Shown here piece after piece: positions 7,787 to 27,584 of a stretch of 35,042 nucleotides of DNA. Made by a program: the position numbers and the translations under genes. The stretch covers positions 1 through 35,042 of the forward strand of contig CAIOJS010000490.1 of assembly GCA_903858655.1 (NCBI GenBank), written 5' to 3'. Source of the stretch: an uncultured bacterium (GTDB taxonomy: Bacteria; Bacteroidota; Bacteroidia; Bacteroidales; CAIWKO01). Position 1 is the stretch's first letter. Each line of letters begins with the position of its first letter. The notes under the pieces are model-generated. The model had not been told where the DNA came from. It made no database searches and worked only from the letters and a program-made list of their open reading frames with translations.

Positions 7787-8038
7787 TCATTTTGGTGGTT
7801 CGGGTTGTGCAGGGAAGGGTTTCTCGATGCGGGTTGGATCATTCTTCTCCGGTTCGTTTACTCCGGGTTCTAATCGGGTGGGGTCATGATTTTCGTCAGG
7901 CTTCGTCGGCGTAGGTTGTATCCCTGGATGATTTGGGTTTTCCGGTTGGTGGTGAGGATTTTCTTGCCATGCTGTGGCTTGTTCGTTCGCCTTATAGTTG
8001 GTTGAACCACTTAGCCAAATTATTTGTTTTCTTTCCAT
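7787..8038 (-). CDS. Small proline-rich hypothetical protein
   Basis: The 83-residue product is hydrophilic and rich in Pro, Asn, Glu and His (for example PHHQPENPNHPGIQPTPTKP), and is probably disordered. It has no signal peptide. I do not recognise a family. It is supported as a real gene by its position: ATG 8038 lies 26 bases after a perfect -7 box (TACCTTTG) that carries the dual-site operator shared by four other promoters in this window. It is first in an operon with the DUF6496 gene. Confidence 0.65.
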   Translation of the reverse strand: MERKQIIWLSGSTNYKANEQATAWQENPHHQPENPNHPGIQPTPTKPDENHDPTRLEPGVNEPEKNDPTRIEKPFPAQPEPPK

Positions 8039-8063: not shown

Positions 8064-8129
8064 CAAAGGTAAACAGGCATTGACGAATAAGGCTTACACA
8101 ATTTCTTGAATTAGTTGTATAATTCACAC
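8064..8129 (-). promoter_or_regulatory. Dual-site stress promoter A
   Basis: Read on the minus strand, half-site 1 is GTGTGAATTATACAA and half-site 2 is GAAATTGTGTAAG. Their AATT cores (8121-8124 and 8100-8103) start 21 bp apart. The second core starts 32 bp before the -7 box TACCTTTG (8064-8071). This spacing is identical in all five promoters of this type in the window. It drives the 7787-8038 and 7565-7756 genes. Confidence 0.8.
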
Positions 8130-8304: not shown

Positions 8305-8550
8305 AAACATATAGTTACGCATATTGTCATTTTACACTTTTGCGAAACTATATAGTTACATCGAGTTGCAAACTATTTCCGCATGAAACTATATAGTTTT
8401 ATCGAGTTGCAAACTATTTCCACGTGTAACTATATAGTTTTATCGAGTTGCAAATTGCAACTCAGTGTAACCATCTTGTTTTATCGAGTTGCAAGTTGCA
8501 ACTGTAAGTAACTATATAGTTTTATATAAATGCAAGAAACATGATAATGC
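8305..8550. repeat. 41-bp-period array with palindromic core
   Basis: Six units start at 8305, 8346, 8387, 8428, 8469 and 8510, exactly 41 bp apart. Four carry the perfect palindrome AACTATATAGTT. The first (AAACATATAGTT) and fifth (AACCATCTTGTT) are variants. The core is followed in units 2-5 by wwATCGAGTTGCAA and then about 15 variable bases. Units 4 and 5 hold a second inverted repeat in the spacer, for example GAGTTGCAAATTGCAACTC (8445-8463). No reading frame runs through it. The array lies between the divergent promoters A and B. Confidence 0.85.
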
Positions 8551-8759: not shown

Positions 8760-8768
8760 TTGATAAGG

Positions 8769-8833
8769 TATGAATTATGTAAATCAAAGTATGAATTGTG
8801 TAAGTGCTTGGTGGCTCATTGTGTGTACTTTTG
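8769..8833 (+). promoter_or_regulatory. Dual-site stress promoter B
   Basis: Half-site 1 is TATGAATTATGTAA (8769-8782) and half-site 2 is TATGAATTGTGTAAGT (8790-8805). They are near-perfect direct repeats 21 bp apart. The second AATT core (8794) starts 32 bp before the -7 box TACTTTTG (8826-8833). It drives the six-gene operon from 8864 to 12865. Confidence 0.85.
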
Positions 8834-8863: not shown

Positions 8864-9232
8864 ATGGAACTAAAAATTAACAGCAAAACATTATCCTATA
8901 ATATGATTGTACAAACGCCTTATCAGGATGAATTCCCGGGCTATCCGGTCTATGCAGCTTGCGACGACATTTATATGCGCGGCAGCAAACAAAAAAATGT
9001 GAATCCCGAAGACATACATAGCTATAAGCATCTTTATGGAACGAATATGGGTAAGTTTACCAATAAAGAAAAACTCAACAACGACGAGCGCGTGAGCAAT
9101 CTGGATGTGCCGGGAGCCGATTTGGACGAAGAGGACCAAAACGTGGGCAACGAGGACGAAGAAAACAACTATTACTCCCTTGGAGGCGATGACCACAATG
9201 ATTTGGATGAAGATAAATCGGAAGTGAATTAA
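8864..9232 (+). CDS. Acidic conserved hypothetical protein
   Basis: The start is ATG 8864, which lies 30 bases after the -7 box; an upstream in-frame start at 8804 would fall inside the operator and is rejected. The product has 122 residues. The first half is neutral. The second half is strongly acidic and carries a motif, NLDVPGADLDEEDQNVGNED then ENNYYSLGGDDHNDLDEDK, that I recall as recurrent in Bacteroidota hypothetical proteins; the function is unknown. It is first in an operon with bacterioferritin (70-base gap), so a role in iron or oxidative stress is an inference from position only. An acidic tail could bind metal ions. Confidence 0.8.
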   Translation: MELKINSKTLSYNMIVQTPYQDEFPGYPVYAACDDIYMRGSKQKNVNPEDIHSYKHLYGTNMGKFTNKEKLNNDERVSNLDVPGADLDEEDQNVGNEDEENNYYSLGGDDHNDLDEDKSEVN

Positions 9233-11658: not shown

Positions 11659-12552
11659 ATGGATTATATTGATTATTACAAACTTTTGGGGATACCCAAA
11701 ACGGCTACGGCGAGCGAGATCAAAGCCGCTTATCGCAAACTGGCGCGCAAGCATCATCCCGACCTAAATCCCAATGACAAGGATGCGATTAAAAGATTTC
11801 AACAAATCAATGAGGCGAATGAGGTGTTGAGCGATGCAACGAAGCGCAAAAAGTACGATCAATATGGAAAAGATTGGCAACATGCAGAGGAATTCGAGCA
11901 ATCGCGTCAACAGCAAAGGCAATCCGCACAAAATCAACAGCAGCAATATGGCGGCGGACAAAATATGGGTGATTTTTCTGATTTCTTTTCATCTATGTTT
12001 GGCAATATGAGTGGCGGCGGCGGAAATCGTCCGCAGGCGAAATACCGCGGCGAGGATTTTTCTGCTGAGGTGCGTTTGCAACTTATAGAGGCTTACGTAA
12101 CGCATAAGCAAACCCTTACGGTGAATGGCAATCAAATTCGCATCACCATTCCTGCGGGTATCGAAAACGGACAGACCATAAAAATTAAAGGTCATGGCGG
12201 CATCGGCACCCACGGCGGACCCAATGGAGACTTATATATTACATTCGCCCTATTGCCCCATCCGCGTATCAAGCGTTTGGAAGATAACCTCTACACTACT
12301 GTGGATTTGGATTTGTATATGGCGATGCTGGGCGGAGAGATGACCATTGAGACCTTATCGGGAAAAGTTAAACTGCACGTGGCTGCAGAAACCCAAAACG
12401 GCACAAAAATCAAGCTTAAAGGCAAGGGATTTCCTGTGTATAAACAAGAAGGGCAGTTCGGCGATTTTTATGTGACCTATAATCTGAAAACACCGACGCA
12501 TCTCACTCAAAGACAAAAAGAATTATTCACCGAACTATCAAAAACAAGCTAA
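11659..12552 (+). CDS. cbpA: DnaJ-class co-chaperone CbpA
   Basis: The 297-residue protein has a J domain at residues 3-70 with the HPD motif at 33-35, then a Gln/Gly-rich linker (about 75-118) and a DnaJ C-terminal substrate-binding region. It lacks the zinc-finger domain of DnaJ, which defines the CbpA type. It stimulates the ATPase of DnaK and delivers clients. The gene for the modulator CbpM follows after 13 bases, the arrangement known from Escherichia coli cbpAM, where CbpM binds the J domain and restrains CbpA. It belongs to the operon of promoter B, with a 12-base gap from the preceding gene. Confidence 0.95.
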   Translation: MDYIDYYKLLGIPKTATASEIKAAYRKLARKHHPDLNPNDKDAIKRFQQINEANEVLSDATKRKKYDQYGKDWQHAEEFEQSRQQQRQSAQNQQQQYGGGQNMGDFSDFFSSMFGNMSGGGGNRPQAKYRGEDFSAEVRLQLIEAYVTHKQTLTVNGNQIRITIPAGIENGQTIKIKGHGGIGTHGGPNGDLYITFALLPHPRIKRLEDNLYTTVDLDLYMAMLGGEMTIETLSGKVKLHVAAETQNGTKIKLKGKGFPVYKQEGQFGDFYVTYNLKTPTHLTQRQKELFTELSKTS

Positions 12553-12565
12553 AATATTCCGCACC

Positions 12566-12865
12566 ATGGAAAAAACATATCTCATAGCCTTAAACGAATT
12601 CTGTAAGAATCATAACATCGAAATATCGTTTATCGAATCACTTCAAAACACGGGTTTGATTGAAACCTCCAAGCTTCACGATGCAGGATTTATAGAAGTC
12701 GAGCAACTCATGCAACTGGAAATGTATGTGCGTTTTCATTACGATTTGGACATCAATCTCGAAGGTATAGAAACCATCATGCACTTGCTCAGTCGCATCG
12801 AATCACAACATAAGGAGATAGTGAAACTCAAAAACAGGCTAATGCTCTATGAATTGAATGAATGA
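12566..12865 (+). CDS. cbpM: Chaperone modulator CbpM
   Basis: The 99-residue protein fits the CbpM/MerR-like modulator group: an N-terminal helix-turn-helix-like part (ALNEFCKNHNIEISFIESLQ, GLIETSK, FIEVEQLMQLEMYVRFHYDLDINLEGIETIMHLL) and a C-terminal coiled coil (ESQHKEIVKLKNRL). In characterised systems it binds the CbpA J domain and blocks its action. It is the last gene of the operon; no strong terminator is visible after it, only short CACGGAG-type repeats. Confidence 0.9.
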   Translation: MEKTYLIALNEFCKNHNIEISFIESLQNTGLIETSKLHDAGFIEVEQLMQLEMYVRFHYDLDINLEGIETIMHLLSRIESQHKEIVKLKNRLMLYELNE

Positions 12866-12919
12866 TTTATGTTTGCAGATGTATAGAAATGCTATGCTGA
12901 AATCTCTGATGAGGATTAC

Positions 12920-12944
12920 CACGGAGGCACGGAGAACACGGAGA
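12920..12944. repeat. Short CACGGAG repeats
   Basis: Three copies of CACGGAG(G/A) lie at 12920, 12928 and 12937 in the 165-base gap between cbpM and tamB. A similar group built on CACATAGG occurs at 20366-20389 and 20408-20415. These are short spacer repeats with no visible function. Confidence 0.5.
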
Positions 12945-13030
12945 AACACTAAGAAGACTACAACAATTCAACAATGTACTAATAAAACAATATAGCAATC
13001 CCCCCTACACAAATGCAATGACAAAAATGA

Positions 13031-16000
13031 ATGAATAAGGTACTACATTATGTAAAGAAAACCCTGAAAGTTGTTTTGTGGATAGCCCTGAGCTTCATAC
13101 TACTCTTTATTACCATAACTATATGCATACAGATTCCCCCGATACAGAAAAAACTGCTCGGCTATGCCACGTCTTTTGTAAGTGATAAGACGCATACTGT
13201 TGTTTCTATCAAGCATTTGAGCCTTGCCTTTCCGTGTAGCATAGTCATAGATGAAATTTATTTGGAGGATGTGCAGCGCGATACTTTGTTGTATGTTGGG
13301 CGCGTGGAAGCCAACCTTTCGCTCACTTCTTTGTTGCATCAGGAAATTAGGGTGAGTGCGTGTGCGCTTACGGATGTCAATTTCCACATGACGCGCATGG
13401 CAAATGACTCTTTATATAACTTCGCCTTTCTCATTAAGGCATTCGCAAGCACTGCAACAAAGCCGAAAGTTGCCGCTCCTGCCACAAAATCGCCGTGGAG
13501 TTTCAGTGTGGGCAGCGTGGATCTCAAAAATATTCGTTTCCATTTGGATGATAACTTTGGCGGTATCAAAGTAGGCGTAATATTGCGGCAGTGTTCCTTA
13601 AATATGGACAAAATTGACATCCCGACCATGACATTTGCAGTGAATGATATTAAGATAGATGGATTATTGACCAGTGTGTTGCTGTTGAATTCGGGACCGC
13701 CGTCCACCGATACCACTTCGAGCACGCTGCCCATCATTCAAGTGAAAACTTTAGCATTGCGTAATACGCATTTCACCTTCGGCGATTCTGTGAGCAAGCT
13801 CTTCATCAACGCTATGGTTACGCAAGTGAATCTGAAGGATGCCTCCGTTAATTTGCCGAAAGAAAATATAACTTTGGGGTATCTCTTCCTTACGAAAAGC
13901 AATGTTACGCTCAAACGTGAACAGGCGGACCCGTCAATCATTTCTCAAGATACATTGTCCGTAGCGTCGGGAGGCAGCAATTATACCATTGCGGTGCAAC
14001 ATGCTCTCTTAGATGATAATGCCTTGGCATATTTGGTGACCAATGTTGCCCCCGAACCAAAAACCTTTGATGTAAATCATTTGGTGTATGCCCATGTCGG
14101 CTTGGATGCCTCCGATTTGTATTATTCCAAATCGAAGCTCAAAGCAAGCATTAGGCAATTGCAAGCAATTGATAACAATGGTATGGATATAGTGAAGTGC
14201 GCCGTAAATTTCACGATGGATGATCATGGCATCCAAGCGCAAAATCTAAAAGTTGCTACCGCCCATTCTGCCATTGAGGCTGATTTGCAGATGCAATATA
14301 CCTCCATTTCGTCTCTAAGTGATTCTATTGGTTTATTGATAGTAGGAGCAAACATTTGCAAGGCGGTGGTTCGAAATTCGGACATCACCTACTTTGTGCC
14401 TCAAATCAAAAAGCAATTATTCTTTAGCAATGCCAATACGCTGAGCAGCATCAGCGGCTTGGTGTATGGACCACTCAATCATCTTACAGCAAAAAATCTC
14501 TTACTCAAAACAGGCGTCGGTACAAGTATTAGTTTGGATGCGTTGATAGTGGGCTTGCCTGATTTTCAACATGCTTATTTTGATATTCCGAATGGCAGCT
14601 TAGTGACAGGTAAGACTGATATTACATTATTTGCTGATACCTTAGTGCCGCGTACTATTGATTTGCCGCAACGTATCGCCATGGCGTTTCAATTTAAAGG
14701 GAAGATGAAAAACTTTCAAGCTCATCTCAGCCTGAATAGCAGCTTTGGCGCTGCGCAAATCCAAGCGGCTGTGGGTGCTGATGAGCATTTCAAAACCACT
14801 GTAAGTCTTAGTCGTTTCGACATTGGGAAATTGATACGCAATACCAATCTGCTTGGCGCTATAAGCCTCAAAGCTGTTGCGGATGGACAGGGATTGAGCA
14901 TGGATAGTATCAAATCAAAACTCGATATAGCGGTGTCGGAAGTGATGATTCAAAAATATAATTATCATAATCTCAACATCAACGGTAATATACGTGGAAA
15001 AGAATTCGAAGGCAGCATCACCTTGAATGATAGCAATGCCAAGTTTTCGATGGAGGCTTTGGTGCAGTTGGATTCTAATGAGCAACATTACAAATACAAT
15101 CTGAACGTGCAGGGCATGGATTTGCAGAAACTCCATCTGATGGAACAAGACAGGCGCATTGCTTTTGATTCGCGGGCAGATATCTATATGGATAGTGCGC
15201 AAGGTATGCGTGGAACTATTGCCATCGGCAAGCTGCTCCTGATGGCTAACGAAAAATCCTATACCCTCGACACCTTGTTGATAGCCTCTCTCAACGAATT
15301 GAATACGAAACGTTTCGAGAAGAATAACGCTTTAATTCTATTTGAATATACAGGCAAAGCTTCGCCCTTAGCGTTACCGAAAACCTATAGCAACATCCTG
15401 AATCATTATTTCCCATTATCAGATTCTATAAAAGCGACAGATGCGGCGGATTTGCAAAATTTCAATTGGCAATTGCAAGTGAATAACCATCCCATGCTGA
15501 AAGAAGTTTTCTTTCCACAGTTGCTCGAATTTGAACCCGCAAGGATAACAAGCAGTTATGATGCACCTTCACAGATACTCACTTTGTCTGCCGGCATTAA
15601 TAAAGTGGTGTACGGCTCCACTGAAATTAACGCGATGCAATTGGCTGTGAATACCGATGCCAATGCTTTGACCTATAAAATATCAAGCGCGTCGGTGTTG
15701 AATTCCTCCATAAAATTGGATCATATTGTGCTCGAAGGGAAAGCCGCCAACAAAACGCTTGAGGCGAATTTGTCGTCGGTGGATGATAATCAAAACAAAA
15801 AACTTCAACTGCAAACCATCATCACGAAGGATAGCGGGAACTATAAGATACACATCGCGCCTAAGGACTTCTATCTAATGAATCATCGGTGGGATGTGGC
15901 TGAGGACAACTATGTTATGGTGGGCAAATCGGGGCTATTATTGCACCACCTCTTCCTTTCGAAAGGCGAAAGTGCCATCAACATCGCATCCGTAAACGAT

Positions 16001-18004
16001 AAGTTTAAGGATGATTTGAGTTTCGAGATGAAACGCTTCGACCTGAATGAAATTTCGGGCATCATAGAGAAAGACACGGGCTTAGTGGCAGGCATTGTGG
16101 ATGGTACGGTGTTGCTGAAGCGCGTCAAGAATATCTATGGCATCATAGCCGATGCGCGCATCACCAATCTGAGTGTGCATGAGATACCCATCGGCGACCT
16201 CAGTGTGAAGGCAAAAAATCCCAATGCGGAGCAATTCGACATCAACATAGCCCTGACAGGCGACAACAATCAGCTCACGGCAACGGGTAGCTACCTGCCA
16301 AACGCTACGAGCAATGCCCTGAATATGAAGGTAAACATCGCAAGGCTTGCGTTGAAGAGCGTGCAAGCTTTTGTGCCTAATTATATTTCAAATGCCTCAG
16401 GAGACGTGGCGGGAGATTTCACGGTGGGAGGCGATCTGTCGGCGCCTGACATCAGCGGCACCTTGACATTTAATGATGTAGCGATGAAGCCACGCATGTT
16501 GAATAGTACGTTGCATATCGCGAAACAAAGCATCCGCATGACGCCTGACGGGATACATTTTGCGACCTTCACGGTGAAAGATTCCAATCAAAATGTGGCA
16601 ATTATAGATGGCAGCATCCGCATGGCGCATTTCAAAAATTTTGTTTTTGCGCTGACGGCAACGACCACCGACTTCCTTTTGTTCAACACAACAGCCCGCG
16701 ACAACAAGGAGTTTTTCGGGCGTATGATATTGGATAGCAAGGTGGACGTACAAGGACCCATGTCGCTTCCGATAGTCAATGCGCACATCAAACTGAAGAA
16801 GGGGTCGAGTTTTACGTTTGCTGTGCCCGAAGATAAATTGACCACAGATAAAGGTGAGGATGTGGTGGAGTTTGAGGACTCTATCAAACTAAATAATATT
16901 ATGCAACGCGACAAACAGCCTATAGCGCAAAAGTTTGCGCTGACAGCTTTCGACATCTCGTCGGTCATCGAAATTGATAAGGAAGCAAGCCTGCGCCTGC
17001 TGTTAGACCCTTCGAGCACTGATTCGTTGGTTGTGAAGGGCGAGGCGGCACTGAATTTTGCTATTGACCGTAGCGGGAAGATGAGTTTGACAGGCGCATA
17101 TAATTTGAATGAAGGTAGTTATCTCGTTTCCTTAGAGAATGTTATCAAGCGACGCTTCGTGATAGAAGCAGGCAGTACCATTACTTGGAATGGGGAGCTG
17201 TTGGGCGCCGATGTGAGTATCAATGCCACTTATTTGGTGCGTGCGACGCCCTTCGATTTAATCGCAGATCAAATGACGAATATGCCCGCAGGCGATCAGA
17301 ATCAATATAAGCAACGCTATCCATTCATCGTGTTGTTGAAGCTACGCGGGGCACTTTTGCAGCCTGTCATCAGCTTCGAGATACAACTGCCGCCCGAAGA
17401 CAAGGGCATAGTGGACGGCGCGGTGAATGCGAAACTTATGATGCTAAATGACGATCCTTCCGCTTTGAACAAACAGGTGTTTGCGCTATTGGTGCTCGGT
17501 CGGTTTATACAAGAAAATCCGCTGCAAAGTGAGACGGGCAGCGCCATGTCTGTCATGAGAACGACAGTGGGTAAGTTTCTGTCCACACAGTTGAACCAAT
17601 TAAGTTCTAAGCTATTAACGGGCGTTGAACTGAACTTCGACATACAATCTTACGATGATTATCAGAGCGGAGAGGCACAAGGGCGGACAAAAATTGATGT
17701 AGGCGTGAAGAAACAGTTATTCAAAGAACGATTGTCGATGCAGGTGGGCGGCGCGGTGGATGTGGAAGGACCGCAAGCGAAACAGAACAACGTGAGCGAC
17801 ATTGTGAGCGACATCATTATGGAATATCTGCTGACCAAAGACGGGCGCTACAAACTGAAAGCCTTCCGCCACAACCAATACGAAGGCGCCATTGATGGAC
17901 AATTGGTGGAAACGGGCGTAGGCGTGGTTTATACGCGCGACTTTTCCTCATGGAAGGATTTGTTCACTACACCCAAAAAAACGGATGCGGTTAGCCAAAA
18001 GTAA
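13031..18004 (+). CDS. tamB: Translocation and assembly module protein TamB
   Basis: The 1657-residue protein begins with a single membrane anchor (about residues 11-35), followed by a very long beta-rich periplasmic body and a C-terminal TamB domain (DUF490, roughly residues 1200-1640, including SGDVAGDFTVGGDLSAPDISGTL and GAYNLNEGSYLV). Such proteins form a hydrophobic groove across the periplasm. They work with an outer membrane Omp85 partner in inserting some outer membrane proteins, and in phospholipid transport in other bacteria. The partner gene starts 12 bases downstream. The gene is on the plus strand with no near-consensus -7 box visible. Length exceeds the E. coli protein (about 1260), as is usual in Bacteroidota. 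Confidence 0.92.
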   Translation: MNKVLHYVKKTLKVVLWIALSFILLFITITICIQIPPIQKKLLGYATSFVSDKTHTVVSIKHLSLAFPCSIVIDEIYLEDVQRDTLLYVGRVEANLSLTSLLHQEIRVSACALTDVNFHMTRMANDSLYNFAFLIKAFASTATKPKVAAPATKSPWSFSVGSVDLKNIRFHLDDNFGGIKVGVILRQCSLNMDKIDIPTMTFAVNDIKIDGLLTSVLLLNSGPPSTDTTSSTLPIIQVKTLALRNTHFTFGDSVSKLFINAMVTQVNLKDASVNLPKENITLGYLFLTKSNVTLKREQADPSIISQDTLSVASGGSNYTIAVQHALLDDNALAYLVTNVAPEPKTFDVNHLVYAHVGLDASDLYYSKSKLKASIRQLQAIDNNGMDIVKCAVNFTMDDHGIQAQNLKVATAHSAIEADLQMQYTSISSLSDSIGLLIVGANICKAVVRNSDITYFVPQIKKQLFFSNANTLSSISGLVYGPLNHLTAKNLLLKTGVGTSISLDALIVGLPDFQHAYFDIPNGSLVTGKTDITLFADTLVPRTIDLPQRIAMAFQFKGKMKNFQAHLSLNSSFGAAQIQAAVGADEHFKTTVSLSRFDIGKLIRNTNLLGAISLKAVADGQGLSMDSIKSKLDIAVSEVMIQKYNYHNLNINGNIRGKEFEGSITLNDSNAKFSMEALVQLDSNEQHYKYNLNVQGMDLQKLHLMEQDRRIAFDSRADIYMDSAQGMRGTIAIGKLLLMANEKSYTLDTLLIASLNELNTKRFEKNNALILFEYTGKASPLALPKTYSNILNHYFPLSDSIKATDAADLQNFNWQLQVNNHPMLKEVFFPQLLEFEPARITSSYDAPSQILTLSAGINKVVYGSTEINAMQLAVNTDANALTYKISSASVLNSSIKLDHIVLEGKAANKTLEANLSSVDDNQNKKLQLQTIITKDSGNYKIHIAPKDFYLMNHRWDVAEDNYVMVGKSGLLLHHLFLSKGESAINIASVNDKFKDDLSFEMKRFDLNEISGIIEKDTGLVAGIVDGTVLLKRVKNIYGIIADARITNLSVHEIPIGDLSVKAKNPNAEQFDINIALTGDNNQLTATGSYLPNATSNALNMKVNIARLALKSVQAFVPNYISNASGDVAGDFTVGGDLSAPDISGTLTFNDVAMKPRMLNSTLHIAKQSIRMTPDGIHFATFTVKDSNQNVAIIDGSIRMAHFKNFVFALTATTTDFLLFNTTARDNKEFFGRMILDSKVDVQGPMSLPIVNAHIKLKKGSSFTFAVPEDKLTTDKGEDVVEFEDSIKLNNIMQRDKQPIAQKFALTAFDISSVIEIDKEASLRLLLDPSSTDSLVVKGEAALNFAIDRSGKMSLTGAYNLNEGSYLVSLENVIKRRFVIEAGSTITWNGELLGADVSINATYLVRATPFDLIADQMTNMPAGDQNQYKQRYPFIVLLKLRGALLQPVISFEIQLPPEDKGIVDGAVNAKLMMLNDDPSALNKQVFALLVLGRFIQENPLQSETGSAMSVMRTTVGKFLSTQLNQLSSKLLTGVELNFDIQSYDDYQSGEAQGRTKIDVGVKKQLFKERLSMQVGGAVDVEGPQAKQNNVSDIVSDIIMEYLLTKDGRYKLKAFRHNQYEGAIDGQLVETGVGVVYTRDFSSWKDLFTTPKKTDAVSQK

Positions 18005-18016
18005 GCCGATACTATC

Positions 18017-20326
18017 ATGAAACACATAACTTTATATACATTCATCTTGCTGCTGACCGCATTTTTGTTTTCGGGATGCAGCGCCATTCGACATCTGGAT
18101 AAAGAAGAAAAACTTTATCTGGGGTCTGAAGTAAAGTTAGAGACAAGCGAGAAATTGACCAAGAGACAAGCTTCCACCTTGATACAAAGCGCAAAATCAG
18201 CCATACGCCCCGACCCGAATAAAAAGTTTTTGGGAGTTCGCACCAAGCTACTGATTTACACCATGGCAGGAAAGAATCCACGCAGCAAATTCCGCAAGTG
18301 GCTGCAACGCAAAGGTGAAGAACCTGTGCTGCTCAGCAGCATCAAGACAAGTGTTACGGCTTCTTTCATTGATGCCAAACTATTCAACCTTGGTGTTTTC
18401 CGAACATCTACCGACGTCCGCATCCTTCCCAAAAAGCGTACCGCCAAAGTACTTTATATCTGTCATGTGCATCGTCCGTATATCTTAAAAAGTATAAAAT
18501 ATGCCATTCAAAATGATAGCATCAGTCGTTTAGTTGACCTAAATCGTGATAAAAGTATTCTCAAAATCGGCGATGATTATAACCTCGACAAACTGAAATA
18601 TGAGCGAGATAGATTAGATGCCCTGCTGAAAGAGCATGGTTATTTCTATTTTGATCCGGATTATCTCATGTTTAAAGCCGATACAGCGCAGGGAAATCAT
18701 TCGGTGGCGCTCCGCCTGATGCTGAAAGATAGTGTGCCGCGAGCCATGCTGGAAGCGTATCGCATTCATCATGTTTATGTGAATCAAGATTATGCGCTCG
18801 ACGCGACGAATACTTCGGGTAAAAATGATACAGTGCGCTTCCACAATATGATATTTCAGGGAAAAAATTCTGACTTAAAAATACGTCCGAAGGTGTTGGA
18901 ATATTCAATTTATTTGAAGAAGGATGACGTTTATTCTGTTACAAATCATACCATAACGCTCAATCGTTTGATGTCTATGGGCAGTTTTAAATTTGTGAGT
19001 ATCAAGTTTTCGCCCGCCGATACGGCAGCGGAAAATTATTTAGATGTGGCAATACTTTTGACTCCAATGGCTAAATATACGCTACGTACGGAGTTGGATG
19101 TGATTGAGAAATCAAATACCAATTTAGGACCGCGTCTCAATCTTAGTTATCTGAATCGTAATACATTCAATGGCGCCGAGCTGTTGACCATACGATTGGC
19201 AGGTTCTTTTGAGGCGCAACTGAGCGGCACAAACAAAAATATGTTTTCATTCTCCGTGAATCCCGAAGCCGAGCTGTCATTTCCTCGCTTTATTGCCCCG
19301 TTTCGCATACGTACCAAAAGTATTTATATCCCAAAGACACATATTCTGCTCTCTTATAATTATTTGAAAAAGGTAAATTATTTCGACATGCACACCTTTC
19401 AGATTATTTATGGTTATAAATGGAAGCAGGACCTCCGTAGTGAGCACGAACTAAATCCGATATTAGTGAGTTTCACGGCTATCAAGAATAAATCTTCGCT
19501 GTTTAATGAGCTGTTGGCATCCAATTTGTTTTTAAAACGAAGCTACGAAGAGCTGTTCGTAGCGGGAGGAAATTATATTTATACCTATAATAAGCCGGAG
19601 ATGTTTGAAAAGCGGATGCGTTTTTACTTCCAATCTATCAACGAGTTGGCAGGCAATTTGTTTTGGGTTATATCCCGCCTGAGCGGAAAGTTAGTAACAG
19701 GTGAACATCCTGCATCCATGCTGGGCAATGTGTATGCGCAATTTGCAAAGATATCCTTAGACGGACGTGCTTATTATAATTTTAAAAATAAAGATAATAT
19801 AGCGATGCGGCTGTTTGCAGGCGTTGCGCGCTCGTTTGGTAATACGCAGTTGTTGCCTTATGCGAAACAATTTTTTTGTGGTGGACCCAAGAGCCTACGC
19901 GGTTTTCATATCAATTCTCTGGGACCCGGCACCTATCAACAAGATGCCAATACAAATGGTTTCTTGCAGTTGGGCGGCGATGTGAAAGTGGAGATGAATT
20001 TGGAATATCGTTTCACGATATATAAATATATCAAAGGCGCTTTGTTTACGGATGCGGGCAACGTATGGTTATTGAAATCGAATCCGTCGAATGTAGGCAG
20101 CTTCTTTGTGTTTAATAGATTTCTGAAGGAGTTGGCGGTGGATGCGGGCGTGGGTTTGCGGATAGATGTTTCATTTTTCGTGCTGCGCTTCGACTTAGCC
20201 ATTCCGTTGCGCAAGCCGTGGCTCGATGAGAATAGACGGTGGGTTTTTGATAAGATCATGTTCATGAACAACGGATGGCGTAGGGAAAATCTTATCCTGA
20301 ATGTGGCGATAGGCTACCCCTTCTAA
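18017..20326 (+). CDS. tamL: TamL, lipoprotein Omp85-family partner of TamB
   Basis: The 769-residue protein has a lipoprotein signal with the lipobox FSGC (C21), then POTRA-like domains (about residues 130-350, e.g. IGDDYNLDKLKYERDRLDALLKEHGYFYF) and a 16-strand Omp85 barrel. Near the end the barrel has the conserved GGPKSLRGFHINSLGPG segment (RGF lock motif of BamA/TamA) and GDVKVEMNLEYRF. TamA homologues with a lipid anchor are known in Bacteroidota as TamL. It acts in the outer membrane with TamB, whose gene is 12 bases upstream. Confidence 0.92.
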   Translation: MKHITLYTFILLLTAFLFSGCSAIRHLDKEEKLYLGSEVKLETSEKLTKRQASTLIQSAKSAIRPDPNKKFLGVRTKLLIYTMAGKNPRSKFRKWLQRKGEEPVLLSSIKTSVTASFIDAKLFNLGVFRTSTDVRILPKKRTAKVLYICHVHRPYILKSIKYAIQNDSISRLVDLNRDKSILKIGDDYNLDKLKYERDRLDALLKEHGYFYFDPDYLMFKADTAQGNHSVALRLMLKDSVPRAMLEAYRIHHVYVNQDYALDATNTSGKNDTVRFHNMIFQGKNSDLKIRPKVLEYSIYLKKDDVYSVTNHTITLNRLMSMGSFKFVSIKFSPADTAAENYLDVAILLTPMAKYTLRTELDVIEKSNTNLGPRLNLSYLNRNTFNGAELLTIRLAGSFEAQLSGTNKNMFSFSVNPEAELSFPRFIAPFRIRTKSIYIPKTHILLSYNYLKKVNYFDMHTFQIIYGYKWKQDLRSEHELNPILVSFTAIKNKSSLFNELLASNLFLKRSYEELFVAGGNYIYTYNKPEMFEKRMRFYFQSINELAGNLFWVISRLSGKLVTGEHPASMLGNVYAQFAKISLDGRAYYNFKNKDNIAMRLFAGVARSFGNTQLLPYAKQFFCGGPKSLRGFHINSLGPGTYQQDANTNGFLQLGGDVKVEMNLEYRFTIYKYIKGALFTDAGNVWLLKSNPSNVGSFFVFNRFLKELAVDAGVGLRIDVSFFVLRFDLAIPLRKPWLDENRRWVFDKIMFMNNGWRRENLILNVAIGYPF

Positions 20327-22783: not shown

Positions 22784-23305
22784 TTAGGTCTTCCTTGTCG
22801 GCACAATAAATACTGGCACTAAGGTGTGGTGCAACACTTGTTCAGAAACACTGCCAAGAACAATATTCTGCAACCATTTGCGGCTGTGCGAACCTATCAC
22901 GATAATGTCGGCGTCCATCTCCTTAGCTGCCAACAAAATAACTTCGGCATACGCGCCTTCCTTCACTAGCGTTTTTATTTTTGTATCCTTCAAGTGACGC
23001 TTCACTTTATCCAAAAAATGTTTTGAGGCATCGCGGAGACCTTTGTCGCTTTCCAGTTCAATCTGTCCCATATCCAGATGACCTCCGAAGCCCAATATCG
23101 GACTATATTCCTTTGAGCCATAGAACACGGGGTCGGTCACCACATGCATAATTGTTATCTCGGCTTTCATCGCTTTAGCCATGCCATAGCCAATCTCAGC
23201 CACTTTAAGCGCACTGACATCATAATCTAATGCTATCAATACTTTTGTTGTTTTCTTTGTTTCCACTTTTTTTGTTTTTTGTGATGATTTAGTTTCGGTG
23301 CTCAT
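22784..23305 (-). CDS. Universal stress protein, UspA family
   Basis: The 173-residue protein has one Usp domain after a Lys/Thr-rich leader (about 20 residues). The beta strand KVLIALDYD starts the domain, the central strand ADIIVIGSHS follows, and the C-terminal GS..S..VLHHTLVPVFIVP closes it. The ATP-binding motif G-2x-G-9x-G(S/T) is present as GSHS, nine residues and GS, with Ser in place of the second Gly, so nucleotide binding is uncertain. Usp proteins act in survival under starvation and oxidative stress. The gene is monocistronic on the minus strand. Its 710-base upstream region is packed with heptamer repeats, and no dual-site promoter was found there. Confidence 0.9.
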   Translation of the reverse strand: MSTETKSSQKTKKVETKKTTKVLIALDYDVSALKVAEIGYGMAKAMKAEITIMHVVTDPVFYGSKEYSPILGFGGHLDMGQIELESDKGLRDASKHFLDKVKRHLKDTKIKTLVKEGAYAEVILLAAKEMDADIIVIGSHSRKWLQNIVLGSVSEQVLHHTLVPVFIVPTRKT

Positions 23306-23348
23306 GATATTTTTATTTTTGATTTATGAATGATATTAAGCTTAAGAT

Positions 23349-23425
23349 CCAAATTCCAAATCCCAAATCCCAAATACCAAGATTGAAGATCCAAAACCCA
23401 AATTCCAAATTCCAAGCTCCAAGGG
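23349..23425. repeat. Heptamer array 1 (CCAAATn)
   Basis: Eleven 7-bp units in unbroken register: CCAAATT, CCAAATC (twice), CCAAATA, CCAAGAT, TGAAGAT, CCAAAAC, CCAAATT (twice), CCAAGCT, CCAAGGG. It lies 44 bases upstream of the usp start codon and can pair with the opposite-strand arrays downstream. Confidence 0.8.
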
Positions 23426-23526
23426 GGGGCAGGCATTTTTGATTTTTTTACAGCATTGAAAAAATATATAATTCAAAAAATCTAAACTATATATCCATCA
23501 ATCCAAGTTATCCCGCGCTTTCCTCC

Positions 23527-23596
23527 TTGGTATTTGGAATTTGGAGCTTGGAACTTGGAATTTTCCTCTTGATACTTGGAATTTGGTTTTTGGTTC
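23527..23596. repeat. Heptamer array 2, inverted (TTGGnnn)
   Basis: Ten 7-bp units in register, mostly TTGGAAT, TTGGAGC or TTGGTTT. They are the reverse complement type of array 1. Arrays 1 and 2 could fold into a long imperfect hairpin with a loop of about 100 bases. Confidence 0.75.
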
Positions 23597-23641
23597 ATGT
23601 TATTTATTTATTTCATGTTTTATGCGTATGATTTGTAAGAC

Positions 23642-23676
23642 CCAAAACCCAAATTCCAAATCCCGAATACCAAGGT
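23642..23676. repeat. Heptamer array 3 (CCAAATn)
   Basis: Five units, CCAAAAC, CCAAATT, CCAAATC, CCGAATA and CCAAGGT, in the orientation of array 1. Confidence 0.7.
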
Positions 23677-23800
23677 GCGGAAGGCTTTTTTGATTTTTCG
23701 TATTAAACACAAACCCGATAGAATCAAAAAAATGTGAAAAATATATTCCGCCAAAAAATGCTAACCTAAAGTTTTTCCCTTTAAATAACGTCGTCGGGAC

Positions 23801-23940
23801 TTGGGCTTTGGATTTTTCTTCTTGGTATTTGGTATTTGGTCTTTGGTATTTGGAATTTTTTATTTAGTATTACATTTTTATATAGTGAAGCTTGAATTTT
23901 TCTTTTTGGTATTTGGTATTTGGAACTTGGTATTTGGATT
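23801..23940. repeat. Heptamer array 4, inverted (TTGGTAT)
   Basis: Two runs (23801-23870 and 23892-23940) of 7-bp units, mainly TTGGTAT, TTGGAAT, TTGGATT and TTTCTTn. The 21-base gap between them is itself three heptamers long, so both runs share one register. The array ends 75 bases from the stop codon of the CsbD-like gene. Confidence 0.75.
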
Positions 23941-24015: not shown

Positions 24016-24201
24016 TCACAGTCCAAGAATTATCTGATGCATTTCCTCCTTAGTCTTATGTAGTTTATATTCTACCATACGCAGCATGATATCCTCCTTG
24101 CCTTCCTCATGTTGCATATCCTTATCTTTCAATTGGGGATATTTCATGCGAAGTTTTTCCTTCAGCTCTGTGAAGTTCCAATGTTCTATATTTGGATCCA
24201 T
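24016..24201 (-). CDS. CsbD-like stress protein
   Basis: The 61-residue protein resembles the CsbD family: WNFTELKEKLRMKYPQLKDKDM, then an acidic helix, EEGKEDIMLRMVEYKL, and a final KTKEEMHQII. CsbD proteins are small, helical, stress-induced and of unknown activity. The N-terminal W and the DxxxxEGxxD-like pattern fit, with divergence. It follows the 24270-24443 gene by 68 bases on the same strand with no terminator between, so both are probably driven by the dual-site promoter at 24495-24559. Confidence 0.75.
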   Translation of the reverse strand: MDPNIEHWNFTELKEKLRMKYPQLKDKDMQHEEGKEDIMLRMVEYKLHKTKEEMHQIILGL

Positions 24202-24269: not shown

Positions 24270-24443
24270 CTAATTCGACAATTTTTTATTAAAGATTAAA
24301 CGCACCAGCACTATGAAGAATGCAATTATCAATAGCAAATGCACGATGCGAAAGGAATAAATGCTATAGGTGTCGAACCCGAAAAAGATGATAGCCCACA
24401 TGATGACTAACAGAGCTGCAATGACATAGAGAGAATTTTTCAT
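24270..24443 (-). CDS. Small lmo0937-like membrane protein
   Basis: The frame runs from ATG (24441-24443) to TAG (24270-24272) and encodes 57 residues. Two hydrophobic helices (SLYVIAALLVIMWAIIFFGF and HLLLIIAFFIVLVRLIF) flank a short turn, DTYSIYSFRIV, and the end is basic (NKKLSN). This matches the layout of the lmo0937 family of tiny two-helix membrane proteins, frequent in Bacteroidota stress loci. The function is unknown. It is the first gene after dual-site promoter C. The -7 box lies about 50 bases upstream of its ATG. Confidence 0.75.
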   Translation of the reverse strand: MKNSLYVIAALLVIMWAIIFFGFDTYSIYSFRIVHLLLIIAFFIVLVRLIFNKKLSN

Positions 24444-24494: not shown

Positions 24495-24559
24495 TAAAAT
24501 TACATCATATTAAGCGATTACATCTTACATAATTCTTTTTATAAGTTACATAATTCACA
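24495..24559 (-). promoter_or_regulatory. Dual-site stress promoter C
   Basis: On the minus strand, half-site 1 is TGTGAATTATGTAAC (core 24552-24555) and half-site 2 is AGAATTATGTAAG (core 24531-24534), 21 bp apart. The -7 box TAATTTTA (24495-24502) starts 32 bp after the second core. It deviates at its last base from TAnnTTTG, so this promoter may depend more on its activator. It drives the 24270-24443 and 24016-24201 genes. Confidence 0.8.
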
Positions 24560-24587
24560 GGTCAACCAAAAAATCGGATTGCTATAG

Positions 24588-24622
24588 AAAAAACAATCCC
24601 GACACGTAACATTATCGGGATT
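24588..24622 (-). terminator. Rho-independent terminator of the YXWGXW gene
   Basis: On the minus strand, AATCCCGA (24622-24615) pairs perfectly with TCGGGATT (24602-24595) across a 12-base loop, then G and a run of T (24593-24588) follow. It ends the transcript of 26299-24857 and insulates promoter C, which begins 29 bases beyond. Confidence 0.8.
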
Positions 24623-24856
24623 ATTTTTGTGGACATGAAGCCCTTTGCAAAGAATCATCGCACTTCTACAACTATTTTACTGTTCGTCTGACGAATTCTT
24701 CTATATAGATCACTTGTTTATTCGCTTTCCCTTTCGAGGATTTTTTTGTTGATATTTATTTTAAACTATATACATCCAAAAATAATTGTATAGATGGATG
24801 AGCTACTTGTTGCTATCGAAGTTAAACATTTCCGCTTAGCTGTTTTAGTTCTTGAT
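24623..24856. other. Long 3-prime spacer of the YXWGXW gene
   Basis: No reading frame or repeat of note is visible in these 234 bases. Together with the terminator, this is the 3-prime untranslated region of the minus-strand gene ending at 24857. Confidence 0.5.
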
Positions 24857-26299
24857 CTACAAACTTCCCGTACTCGGCATTTCGTTTATAGGTTGGCTCG
24901 AAGGATAAACTTTTGTAGGCTGTTGTTTGTTCGACTGCTTAGCCGGTTTTGTTCTCGTAGGTGGCTGTTTGTTCTGTTGTTGTGTAGGTTGCGTCTTAGT
25001 GGGTTGTTGCGTAGGTTGTTGTTGTGTAGGTTGCGTCTTAGTGGGTTGTTGCGTAGGTTGTTGTTGTGTTGGTTGCGTTTGCGTGGGTTGTTGCGTAGGT
25101 TGTTGTTGTGTCGGTTGCGTTTGCGTTGGCTGTTGCGTAGGTTGTTGTTGTGTTGGTTGCGTCCTATTGGGTTGTTGTTTGTTCTGTTGTTTTATAGGTT
25201 GTGTCTTTGTAGGTTGTTGTTTCGTTTGTTGCTTAGCAGGTTGCGTCTTTGTAGGTTGTTGTTGGTTCTGTTGCTTCACAGGTTGTGTCTTTGTAGGTTG
25301 TTGTTGGTTCTGTTGCTTCACAGGTTGCGTCTTAGTGGGTTGTTGTTTATTCTGTTGTTGCGTAGGTTGTGTCTTTGTAGGTTGTTGCTTGTTCTGTTGT
25401 TGCGTAGGTTGTGTCTTAGTTGGTTGTTGACTGTTTGTATTTTGTACCTTTTGTATCTTTGTAGGTTGTGTCTTCGTCTGCTGTGTGTTTCCCTTAGTGG
25501 GAGTAGCATTCACGCGTTGCGCAGCGGGCTTCACATTAGTCATATTGTCAACAACATACGGCACAGGTTTTTGTTTATCATTGGCTGCCTTTGTCACTTG
25601 CGGACGATAGATAAGCATCTGATTTTTATTCACACTCTGTCCGGGCTTGCTGCTATTTGTCATTTTGATTGGCGTGATGCTTCGGTTCGAACGTTTCTCC
25701 ACCTCAGCCCGATTCGGACCCATATTATACGAGGTGTTAGTGGTATTATTCACCCGCACATTATTGATAACGGTCGAGTTGTTATACACGGTGATATTGG
25801 TCGAATTGTCAACATAATAGTTATTTATCGTAGTACTTCCGAAATTATTGGCGCCTACGAAGGTCCACTGATTATATGGCGAATCATAGTTGTTGCCCGG
25901 ACCCATAGGCGACCATCCGTAAAAACCATCCGATTGACGCCAGTTAACCCACCCGGGACCCCATTGATAGTCGGGAACCCATATCGGTCCATACATAGCA
26001 TCGGTGTACCATCTGCCGTAGTGAAACGGAGCCCATCCCCATGCATAATACGATATCCACGTCCAACCTTCGTCTGTATATGCCCAATATCCATTGGTGG
26101 CGTAGGGCGTGAAGCCTGATGAAACTTCAGGAATCCATACATAGCCATAGTCGGGACTTTCCACCCAACTGCCATAGGGACTTAAATCGTCGTAGAAAAC
26201 CTGAAAACTTACCGAAACGCCTTGTGATGTCGCTTTCGATGGGGTGATGCAAGCGCCTATAAAGAGCACGAACAAGAGAGCAATGATTTTGTTTTTCAT
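24857..26299 (-). CDS. YXWGXW/DUF6600-type envelope protein with repeat tail
   Basis: The 480-residue protein begins with an export signal; the lipobox-like IGAC ends at C17, though cleavage after SKA is also possible. Residues about 35-160 are aromatic-rich, with YGSWVESPDYGYVWIPEV, GYWAYTDEGWTWISYYAWGWAPFHYGRWY and GPIWVPDYQWGPGWVNWRQ, the pattern of YXWGXW/DUF6600 proteins. Asn/Thr-rich text follows (165-260), then thirteen 14-residue repeats (279-460), and a unique end, PTKVYPSSQPINEMPSTGSL. It is probably a cell-envelope protein with an extended Gln/Pro/Thr tail. It stands alone behind dual-site promoter D, with its own terminator. Confidence 0.85.
   Translation of the reverse strand: MKNKIIALLFVLFIGACITPSKATSQGVSVSFQVFYDDLSPYGSWVESPDYGYVWIPEVSSGFTPYATNGYWAYTDEGWTWISYYAWGWAPFHYGRWYTDAMYGPIWVPDYQWGPGWVNWRQSDGFYGWSPMGPGNNYDSPYNQWTFVGANNFGSTTINNYYVDNSTNITVYNNSTVINNVRVNNTTNTSYNMGPNRAEVEKRSNRSITPIKMTNSSKPGQSVNKNQMLIYRPQVTKAANDKQKPVPYVVDNMTNVKPAAQRVNATPTKGNTQQTKTQPTKIQKVQNTNSQQPTKTQPTQQQNKQQPTKTQPTQQQNKQQPTKTQPVKQQNQQQPTKTQPVKQQNQQQPTKTQPAKQQTKQQPTKTQPIKQQNKQQPNRTQPTQQQPTQQPTQTQPTQQQPTQQPTQTQPTQQQPTQQPTKTQPTQQQPTQQPTKTQPTQQQNKQPPTRTKPAKQSNKQQPTKVYPSSQPINEMPSTGSL
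24920..25465 (-). repeat. 42-bp coding repeat (14-residue PTKTQPxxQQnKQQ units)
   Basis: Thirteen consecutive 42-bp units encode residues 279-460, each starting PTKTQP or PTQTQP (outer units diverged). Within several units a 21-bp (7-residue) sub-period is visible. The low-complexity DNA also opens long spurious frames on the plus strand. Confidence 0.85.
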
Positions 26300-26338
26300 A
26301 TTATTTTATATTTTATTGGTGATGAATTTATCACAATG

Positions 26339-26403
26339 CAAAAGTACGATGAACTGATGGCGTAGGTGTTATATAATTTTGTTTAAAACTTACATGATTC
26401 ACA
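26339..26403 (-). promoter_or_regulatory. Dual-site stress promoter D
   Basis: On the minus strand, half-site 1 is TGTGAATCATGTAAGTT (26403-26387) and half-site 2 is CAAAATTATATAAC. Cores start 21 bp apart. The -7 box TACTTTTG (26339-26346) starts 32 bp after the second core. ATG 26299 lies 39 bases downstream. Confidence 0.82.
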
Positions 26404-26465
26404 CATTGTTAGGGAGCTTTTTGATTATAGAATCCATCAGCCAAGCCTCTCATCGCATGAAGTTT

Positions 26466-26729
26466 TTATTTATGATGTCCTCTATGTTGTCCATTATCAT
26501 GATGCTCCCCATGATTATCCTGACCGGAATTGCCGCGTTGTTCGTAGGTTCCCCCATGTCTAACCTGCATAGGGCGTGGAAAAGGTGCGAAGCACGACGA
26601 CAAAAAGCCGACAACGCAGCATAGTAAAACAAAAATTAGTAATAGTAGTCCCTTGCGACGTCTGCTGATTTTAAAATGCGATGTACTAGGATGTTCGACG
26701 GTATGTCCGATAGTCAATTTTGATTTCAT
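26466..26729 (-). CDS. Small His-rich lipoprotein-like peptide
   Basis: The 87-residue protein has a basic head ending ISRRRKG, a hydrophobic stretch (about 28-43) and a lipobox-like LSSC at 43-46. It therefore looks like a lipoprotein with a long n-region or a single-pass membrane protein. The outer part is His/Gly-rich (HGGTYEQRGNSGQDNHGEHH and GQHRGHHK), a composition that often binds metal ions. I do not recognise a family. It is supported as a gene by the dual-site promoter at 26771-26835. Confidence 0.65.
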   Translation of the reverse strand: MKSKLTIGHTVEHPSTSHFKISRRRKGLLLLIFVLLCCVVGFLSSCFAPFPRPMQVRHGGTYEQRGNSGQDNHGEHHDNGQHRGHHK

Positions 26730-26770
26730 GGTGATGATTGTTTAAATAGTTACTTCGAAATTTATAAATG

Positions 26771-26835
26771 CAAAGGTCGTTCGAATCCATCATCAAAGTG
26801 TTACACAATTCCACATATAACTTACATGATTAACA
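26771..26835 (-). promoter_or_regulatory. Dual-site stress promoter E
   Basis: On the minus strand, half-site 1 is TGTTAATCATGTAAGTT (26835-26819) and half-site 2 is GTGGAATTGTGTAAC. Cores start 21 bp apart, and the second starts 32 bp before GACCTTTG (26771-26778), a -7 box with G in place of the first T. It lies 2 bases after the stop codon of the MlaD gene. Confidence 0.78.
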
Positions 26836-26837
26836 CG

Positions 26838-27584
26838 TTATTTTTTTGCTTTATCCAAAGCCTTCTGCTTGGCTTTGCGTGCCTTTTCTTCGTCATCTTT
26901 CAGTTGCTGTGCGGCTTCCGCTTTCCGTCTGAAATAACCCCTCAGCAAGAAGTTCTCCTTGGCAGCATTCATGTTCTCATCCAAGCCTTTGCTGCTGCTT
27001 TTGATATTCTTCATGGTTTCACTAAAGTCGTCGCCTATCATCGTATCCTGAATCAAACGCCCCAAAGTGCCGCGCCCGCTATTTATCTTAATCATGATCT
27101 CTGCCAATTGGTCCGACACCACTTCCGCATTACTTGCCGTTATCTTCAAACTTGCTATGATGGCATCCGTCTCAACAGGTTCGCGCGAGGCGATGGCATC
27201 GCCGTCCTTCACAGCAGGCACCTCACTGCTGCGTTGCGAAATCGTCAGTATCTTGTCGCCGATAATCCCTGCCGAGCCGATGCTTGCCGAACAATCTTTT
27301 TTGATAAAACGTTGAATACTTTTGCGCAGTATCATGTCCACCATCACCGTCGAATCGTCTATAATGTCAATGGCATCCACAGTTCCTACGTTGATGCCCG
27401 CGAAGCGGATATTGCTGCCAACTTCCAGTCCGCTCACATTCGTGAAGCTCGTTGTCAACCGAAAAACAGGATTGAACAAATTCTTTTGCTTGCCAAGGAT
27501 AAAGATAGTCAGCACAAACAATAAGATGCCGATGACGATGAATATCCCTAAACGTAATTTGAACTTTGTTGTACTCGTATCCAT
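26838..27584 (-). CDS. mlaD: MlaD family (MCE domain) lipid transport protein
   Basis: The 248-residue protein has one N-terminal membrane anchor (about residues 10-30), one MCE domain (about 38-115, with LTTSFTNVSGLEVGSNIRFAGINVGTVDAIDI and GSAGIIGDKILTIS), and a long helical tail that turns strongly charged (DDEEKARKAKQKALDKAKK). MCE proteins form hexameric rings that carry lipids between the membranes. The permease and ATPase genes are just upstream (MlaF gap 105 bases). The basic coiled tail suggests an extended stalk or a contact with a partner not in the window. Confidence 0.9.
   Translation of the reverse strand: MDTSTTKFKLRLGIFIVIGILLFVLTIFILGKQKNLFNPVFRLTTSFTNVSGLEVGSNIRFAGINVGTVDAIDIIDDSTVMVDMILRKSIQRFIKKDCSASIGSAGIIGDKILTISQRSSEVPAVKDGDAIASREPVETDAIIASLKITASNAEVVSDQLAEIMIKINSGRGTLGRLIQDTMIGDDFSETMKNIKSSSKGLDENMNAAKENFLLRGYFRRKAEAAQQLKDDEEKARKAKQKALDKAKK

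Follow-up and report, generated by a model that had tools for sequence, protein, structure and literature searches.

Five promoters in one contig of an uncultured Bacteroidales bacterium share a direct repeat at a constant distance from the start box, which raises the question of what regulator reads this repeat and which functions it controls. The window considered here is the whole analysed stretch of 35,042 nucleotides, which is contig C490 of a MAG (G000; 4.2 Mb in 558 contigs, 81% complete) with the gene content and -7 boxes of Bacteroidota. Computation established the motif and its fixed geometry, the target families that recur, how araC is linked to the motif, and how the two co-occur across genomes. 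From these results, we consider it quite likely that the five promoters of the window belong to a Bacteroidota regulon under the control of a single AraC-family activator.

Promoter Architecture

Promoters A to E follow a common plan in which a 21-bp direct repeat, GTGTGAATnATGTAAC ... GAATTRTGTAAC, is followed by a Bacteroidota -7 box. The repeat is seen in all five, as a sequence-only reading of the window had claimed, and the -7 box starts 54 bp past the first GAAT in each (5/5). Promoter A (8768..8833, forward strand) has half-sites at 8768-8783 and 8793-8804 and the box TACTTTTG at 8826-8833. The others lie on the reverse strand: promoter B (8064..8129; half-sites 8114-8129 and 8093-8104; box TACCTTTG at 8064-8071), promoter C (24495..24560; half-sites 24545-24560 and 24524-24535; a weak box, TAATTTTA, at 24495-24502), promoter D (26339..26404; half-sites 26389-26404 and 26368-26379; box TACTTTTG at 26339-26346), and promoter E (26771..26836; half-sites 26821-26836 and 26800-26811; box GACCTTTG at 26771-26778). 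The repeats and boxes of C, D, and E thus map to where the same reading had placed these promoters. A search of the window for the half-site TGTGAATYATGTAAGTT with up to three mismatches returned five matches, compared with a shuffle mean of 0.53, and none of 100 shuffles reached five. Promoter A accounts for two of these matches, one per half-site, and C, D, and E for one each, at the first half-site; promoter B was detected with the paired pattern.

The host genome was scanned by pattern search, yielding at least 20 such promoters; matches with three mismatches were no commoner than control-pattern matches and were disregarded. In 20 host promoters, the first repeat reads GTGTGAATnATGTAAC and the second, GAATTRTGTAAC, starts 21 bp on, with a -7 box of the form [TG]ACYTTTG at 54 bp past the first GAAT in 18. 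The conserved first half-site is about 16-17 bp long. Host sites are clustered, with eight on contig C54 and five in the window; were 20 sites spread evenly over the genome, five or more in 35 kb would have a probability near 1e-6. The earlier proposal of activator-type promoters belonging to one shared regulon is supported.

In Flavobacterium johnsoniae, the -7 box lies at -12 to -5, and the primary-sigma -7 element of Bacteroidota is TAnnTTTG (PMC6847099). A box of this primary-sigma (sigma-ABfr) type is found at a fixed distance in most of the sites. When the box is put at -12 to -5 as in F. johnsoniae, the repeats come to lie at about -70 to -55 and -45 to -34, and the second repeat therefore covers the place of the -33 element.

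Genes Behind the Promoters

The first ORF behind promoter A (8867-9232, forward) encodes an acidic protein of 121 aa and is followed in the same direction by ferritin-like, NAD-binding oxidoreductase, OYE-type, CbpA-CbpM, TamB, and Omp85 genes. At 11659-20326, CbpA-CbpM and then TamB and the Omp85 protein are encoded in one direction, joining chaperone genes to outer-membrane assembly genes. Recurrence of the motif at cbpA orthologues had been anticipated, and a cbpA-cbpM pair in locus L072 does have a site. Promoter B precedes a Pro-rich ORF of 83 aa (7787-8038, reverse), a paralogue of which (L032:6847-7098) likewise follows a site, on contig C54. Between B and A lies an array of ~50-bp units (AACTATATAGTTTTATCGAGTTGCAA...) at 8330-8530, and a possibly similar array occurs on contig C54 near L032:7400-7610.

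Behind promoter C, the sequence-only reading had placed an lmo0937-like and a CsbD-like protein, which holds in part. The DUF5670/lmo0937-like gene (24270-24443, reverse; E 1.3e-4) scores 22.4 bits, just below Pfam's 23.5, and the 61-aa product of the second gene (24016-24201, reverse) resembles CsbD by eye and has no Pfam or NCBIfam match. A UspA gene (22784-23305) comes after the CsbD-like gene with a 0.7-kb gap between them, and short repeats of the type TTGGTATTTGG / TTGGAATTTGG are found in this gap at 23300-23930. Promoter D precedes a DUF6600 (YXWGXW) protein with a Gln/Thr-rich repeat tail (24857..26299, reverse), in agreement with the surface protein named earlier. Behind promoter E lies an 87-aa ORF (26466..26729, reverse) that had been described as a His-rich lipoprotein-like peptide; it is His-rich, and a family search with it gave no match. 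The mlaD gene ends at 26838, immediately before promoter E, which places the MlaE-MlaF-MlaD genes (29339-26838, reverse) upstream of this promoter and not behind it.

Certain families recur among the first ORFs behind 206 sites: DUF3494 ice-binding proteins (31), CsbD (24), OmpA with a glycine zipper (12), YtxH (10), DUF6600 (8), lmo0937-like (8), MlaE (6), and Dps (3), together with many single ones. CsbD is found in 9 of 12 motif-positive genomes tested versus none of six without strict matches. The motif had been expected upstream of orthologues in relatives, and all 10 csbD loci carry the repeat upstream, clearly in eight and in drifted form in two from flavobacterium-like genomes. The host genome encodes seven DUF3494 ice-binding domains (L032, L033; contigs C54 and C190), several of them behind promoters of the regulon and some in open frames of more than 500 and more than 1500 residues. 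Judged from gene content, the description of the promoter set as a stress/envelope regulon is well supported, and the set appears to switch on envelope- and stress-protection genes. The stress and envelope theme proposed earlier is thus borne out by recurring target families, with the label "general stress" resting on gene content only.

Distribution Across Bacteroidota

With at most one mismatch, the 34-bp pattern occurs in 9 of 79 genomes of the same order (no control matches); at the scale of the phylum, 14 of 296 genomes have it (one control match). The exact pattern is present in at least 80 stretches of named genomes, those listed all being Bacteroidota where the group is named. Among the matches listed are the genera Draconibacterium, Prolixibacter, Mariniphaga, Sunxiuqinia, Maribellus, Paludibacter, Flavobacterium, Lutibacter, Polaribacter, and Niastella, and cultured bearers include Draconibacterium orientale, Prolixibacter bellariivorans, Flavobacterium yafengii, and Niastella vici. 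Over all fetched stretches, the 39-bp consensus with up to four mismatches gave 221 sites versus none in the reversed sequence, a figure that speaks for specificity and not density, as the stretches were picked for having a site. The -7 box lies at +54 in 138 of these 221 sites and at +53 in seven. Some loci are duplicates, taken from a single organism with two names; L151 and L085, for instance, correspond to the same contig. In flavobacterium-like genomes, the motif has drifted.

A Candidate AraC-Family Regulator

The regulator had been held to be absent from the window, and the candidate araC indeed lies on another contig of the host MAG, C74, which resembles the window in GC content (0.397 versus 0.395) and tetranucleotide composition (r 0.96). 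One AraC-family protein of ~190 residues accounts for five of the ORFs behind sites. The host gene (L036:2656-3231) is followed by genes for a PAS hybrid kinase with a receiver and then for a 143-residue receiver. This order is kept in six loci (the host, L085, L088, L072, L092, and L126), five of which were chosen because a site precedes araC.

The candidate protein has a C-terminal AraC-type helix-turn-helix domain (PF12833, E 3.4e-15; PF00165, E 3.1e-8) and no receiver domain. In an AlphaFold model built from 10 sequences (mean pLDDT 84), the C domain is an AraC-type DNA-binding domain with Z scores of 9-11 to AraT, MarA, AraC, and SoxS. The N domain is modelled as beta-alpha-beta-beta-alpha-beta, with Z scores of 7-8 to HMA metallochaperones and ACT domains; this fold is common and does not imply metal binding. 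In the 10-sequence alignment, C13 is invariant and the second Cys of the HMA metal site is mostly Ser. The 21-bp geometry fits AraC-type half-sites and the sites adjoin the gene; binding itself is predicted.

Two arrangements link the motif to the gene. In L172-L178, the motif lies ~95 bp upstream of the araC start, and in a second clade, it lies directly past the araC stop in the same direction (L179, L181-L188, L192, L210, L220, and L228). Training of the scoring matrix used sites from some of these araC loci, but none from L175, L176, L178, or L182-L188. Among the 80 motif-bearing stretches listed from named genomes (0.6 Mb), 10 contain a total of 11 araC genes, each at least 44% identical to the host copy, whereas ~0.3 would be expected from a density of roughly 0.5 per Mb in motif-positive genomes. 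Diverged copies of araC keep the 21-bp repeat just downstream: in 37 araC loci without a matrix match, six RTRYAA pairs were found just downstream on the gene's strand, all 21 bp apart, versus six pairs with one at 21 bp and no peak on the upstream side.

The gene and the motif also co-occur across genomes. Within the order, at a 190-bit cut-off, araC is present in 6 of 8 motif-positive genomes and in 10 of 70 others (Fisher p 7e-4); across the phylum, at E 1e-45, it is present in 10 of 13 motif-positive genomes and in 65 of 282 others (Fisher p 1e-4); in both tests, the own genome was left out, and the Fisher tests ignore relatedness. The three exceptions in the phylum-wide test, as well as G034, proved to have weaker relatives when searched with a profile. 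No araC relative was found by profile search in G049 (94% complete), which has several sites (L087 is G049:C172); either an assembly gap or a different regulator would account for this genome. Good araC orthologues also occur in several genomes that gave no strict motif match.

Proposed Mechanism and Alternatives

We infer that the AraC protein binds the motif and activates transcription. The protein, which joins an HMA-like N domain to a DNA-binding domain of the AraC type, would occupy the 21-bp direct repeat as a pair of subunits spanning about -70 to -34, where the promoter-proximal half-site may stand in for a -33 element. Once bound, the activator would bring the primary-sigma form of RNA polymerase to the -7 box. 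In the clade to which the host belongs (C74), its targets would also include its own operon of araC, PAS hybrid histidine kinase, and stand-alone receiver. The kinase and receiver may in turn feed a signal to the activator, presumably some form of osmotic, cold, or envelope stress. Several observations count against this proposal: the missing araC relative in G049, the orthologue-bearing genomes with no strict match, the drift of the motif, the flat upstream side in the spacing comparison, the incomplete host assembly in which araC and the window are on separate contigs, and the lack of a receiver domain in the activator.

The sequence-only reading had instead pointed to LytTR, and a LytTR-family response regulator could bind 21-bp direct repeats of this kind. 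Known LytTR sites are 9-bp repeats with 11-13 bp between them, just upstream of -35 (PMC6193735), and the period observed here fits that spacing. However, spacing does not decide the matter, since a period of about 21 bp is common to LytTR and AraC/XylS sites, and the first half-site of ~16-17 bp is longer than a LytTR repeat. The presence of LytTR genes is likewise uninformative, as all 16 motif-positive genomes tested have them. In two flavobacterium-like genomes, G220 and G296, a LytTR response-regulator gene lies tail-to-tail with csbD (G220:C36 and L246:1490-2550), which leaves the LytTR reading some probability; the motif was looked for at this LytTR gene and not found. Moreover, the host has nine LytTR genes, all of them on contigs that lack the motif, and in the listed stretches of named genomes the sites are not accompanied by any recurring LytTR family. 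A family found in every genome tested yet unlinked to the sites was set aside as a candidate; gene linkage, which ties one AraC subfamily to the sites, favours AraC, and the LytTR assignment, probably wrong, is given little credence.

It is somewhat less improbable, though still unlikely, that the sites are read by some other regulator, encoded elsewhere, with the araC operon as just one more target. The first-clade araC carries a promoter like those of other targets, and G049 has sites and no araC relative. Being a target does not, however, explain the linkage in the second clade, where the site follows araC instead of preceding it, nor do the diverged copies with their downstream repeat fit this account. 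Among families found in four or more of the 80 listed stretches, no other transcription factor was seen by eye except CbpM, a chaperone modulator. The uniform spacing to the start box might also suggest a class of alternative-sigma promoters that need no activator. We find this scarcely credible, because the start box is the ordinary primary-sigma element TAnnTTTG (PMC6847099) and the repeats reach to about -70. Control by the AraC-family activator is thus the reading we prefer.

Significance and Comparison With Known Systems

We know of no general stress regulon described for the phylum Bacteroidota and, to our knowledge, no RpoS or sigma-B counterpart has been described there. A search of the open-licence literature returned nothing relevant on the motif, on an AraC regulator linked to CsbD or DUF3494 in Bacteroidota, or on a stress regulator for the phylum, which is weak evidence of novelty given its restriction to open-licence papers. 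We judge the case evenly balanced that many Bacteroidota control a general stress regulon through an AraC-type activator with an HMA-like domain, together with a PAS hybrid kinase and a receiver, at ordinary primary-sigma promoters and without recourse to an alternative sigma factor. For a major phylum, the proposal names a candidate for the master regulator of stress protection, along with a binding site and a list of targets, and would place ice-binding DUF3494, CsbD, DUF6600, and Mla genes under one switch. The cultured species bearing the motif make it open to step-by-step testing.

The Sigma-B, RpoS, and PhyR-EcfG stress responses control overlapping types of target, including CsbD, Dps/ferritin, YtxH, Usp, and lmo0937-like proteins. 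Unlike these systems, the proposed activator would use the ordinary sigma factor, so that an alternative one is not needed. LytTR systems place direct repeats with a period of 21 bp ahead of the promoter and are positively autoregulated (PMC6193735). The promoters described here share the repeats and their period, and the proposed regulon would share the autoregulation, but they have a longer half-site and no linked LytTR gene. There is also a likeness to AraC/XylS-family activators that work adjacent to the promoter: two direct-repeat half-sites are present, of which the proximal one extends into the -35/-33 region, and the candidate regulator carries an AraC-type DNA-binding domain. AraC at araI1-I2 and XylS at Pm use direct-repeat half-sites about 21-22 bp apart. 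MtlR at PmtlE occupies two 15-bp blocks, at -72 to -58 and -50 to -36 (PMC4514859). In contrast to AraC, XylS, and MtlR, the candidate has an HMA-like N domain in place of a sugar/effector domain, would serve 20 or more promoters with a Bacteroidota -7 box, and shares its operon with genes for a hybrid kinase and a stand-alone receiver.
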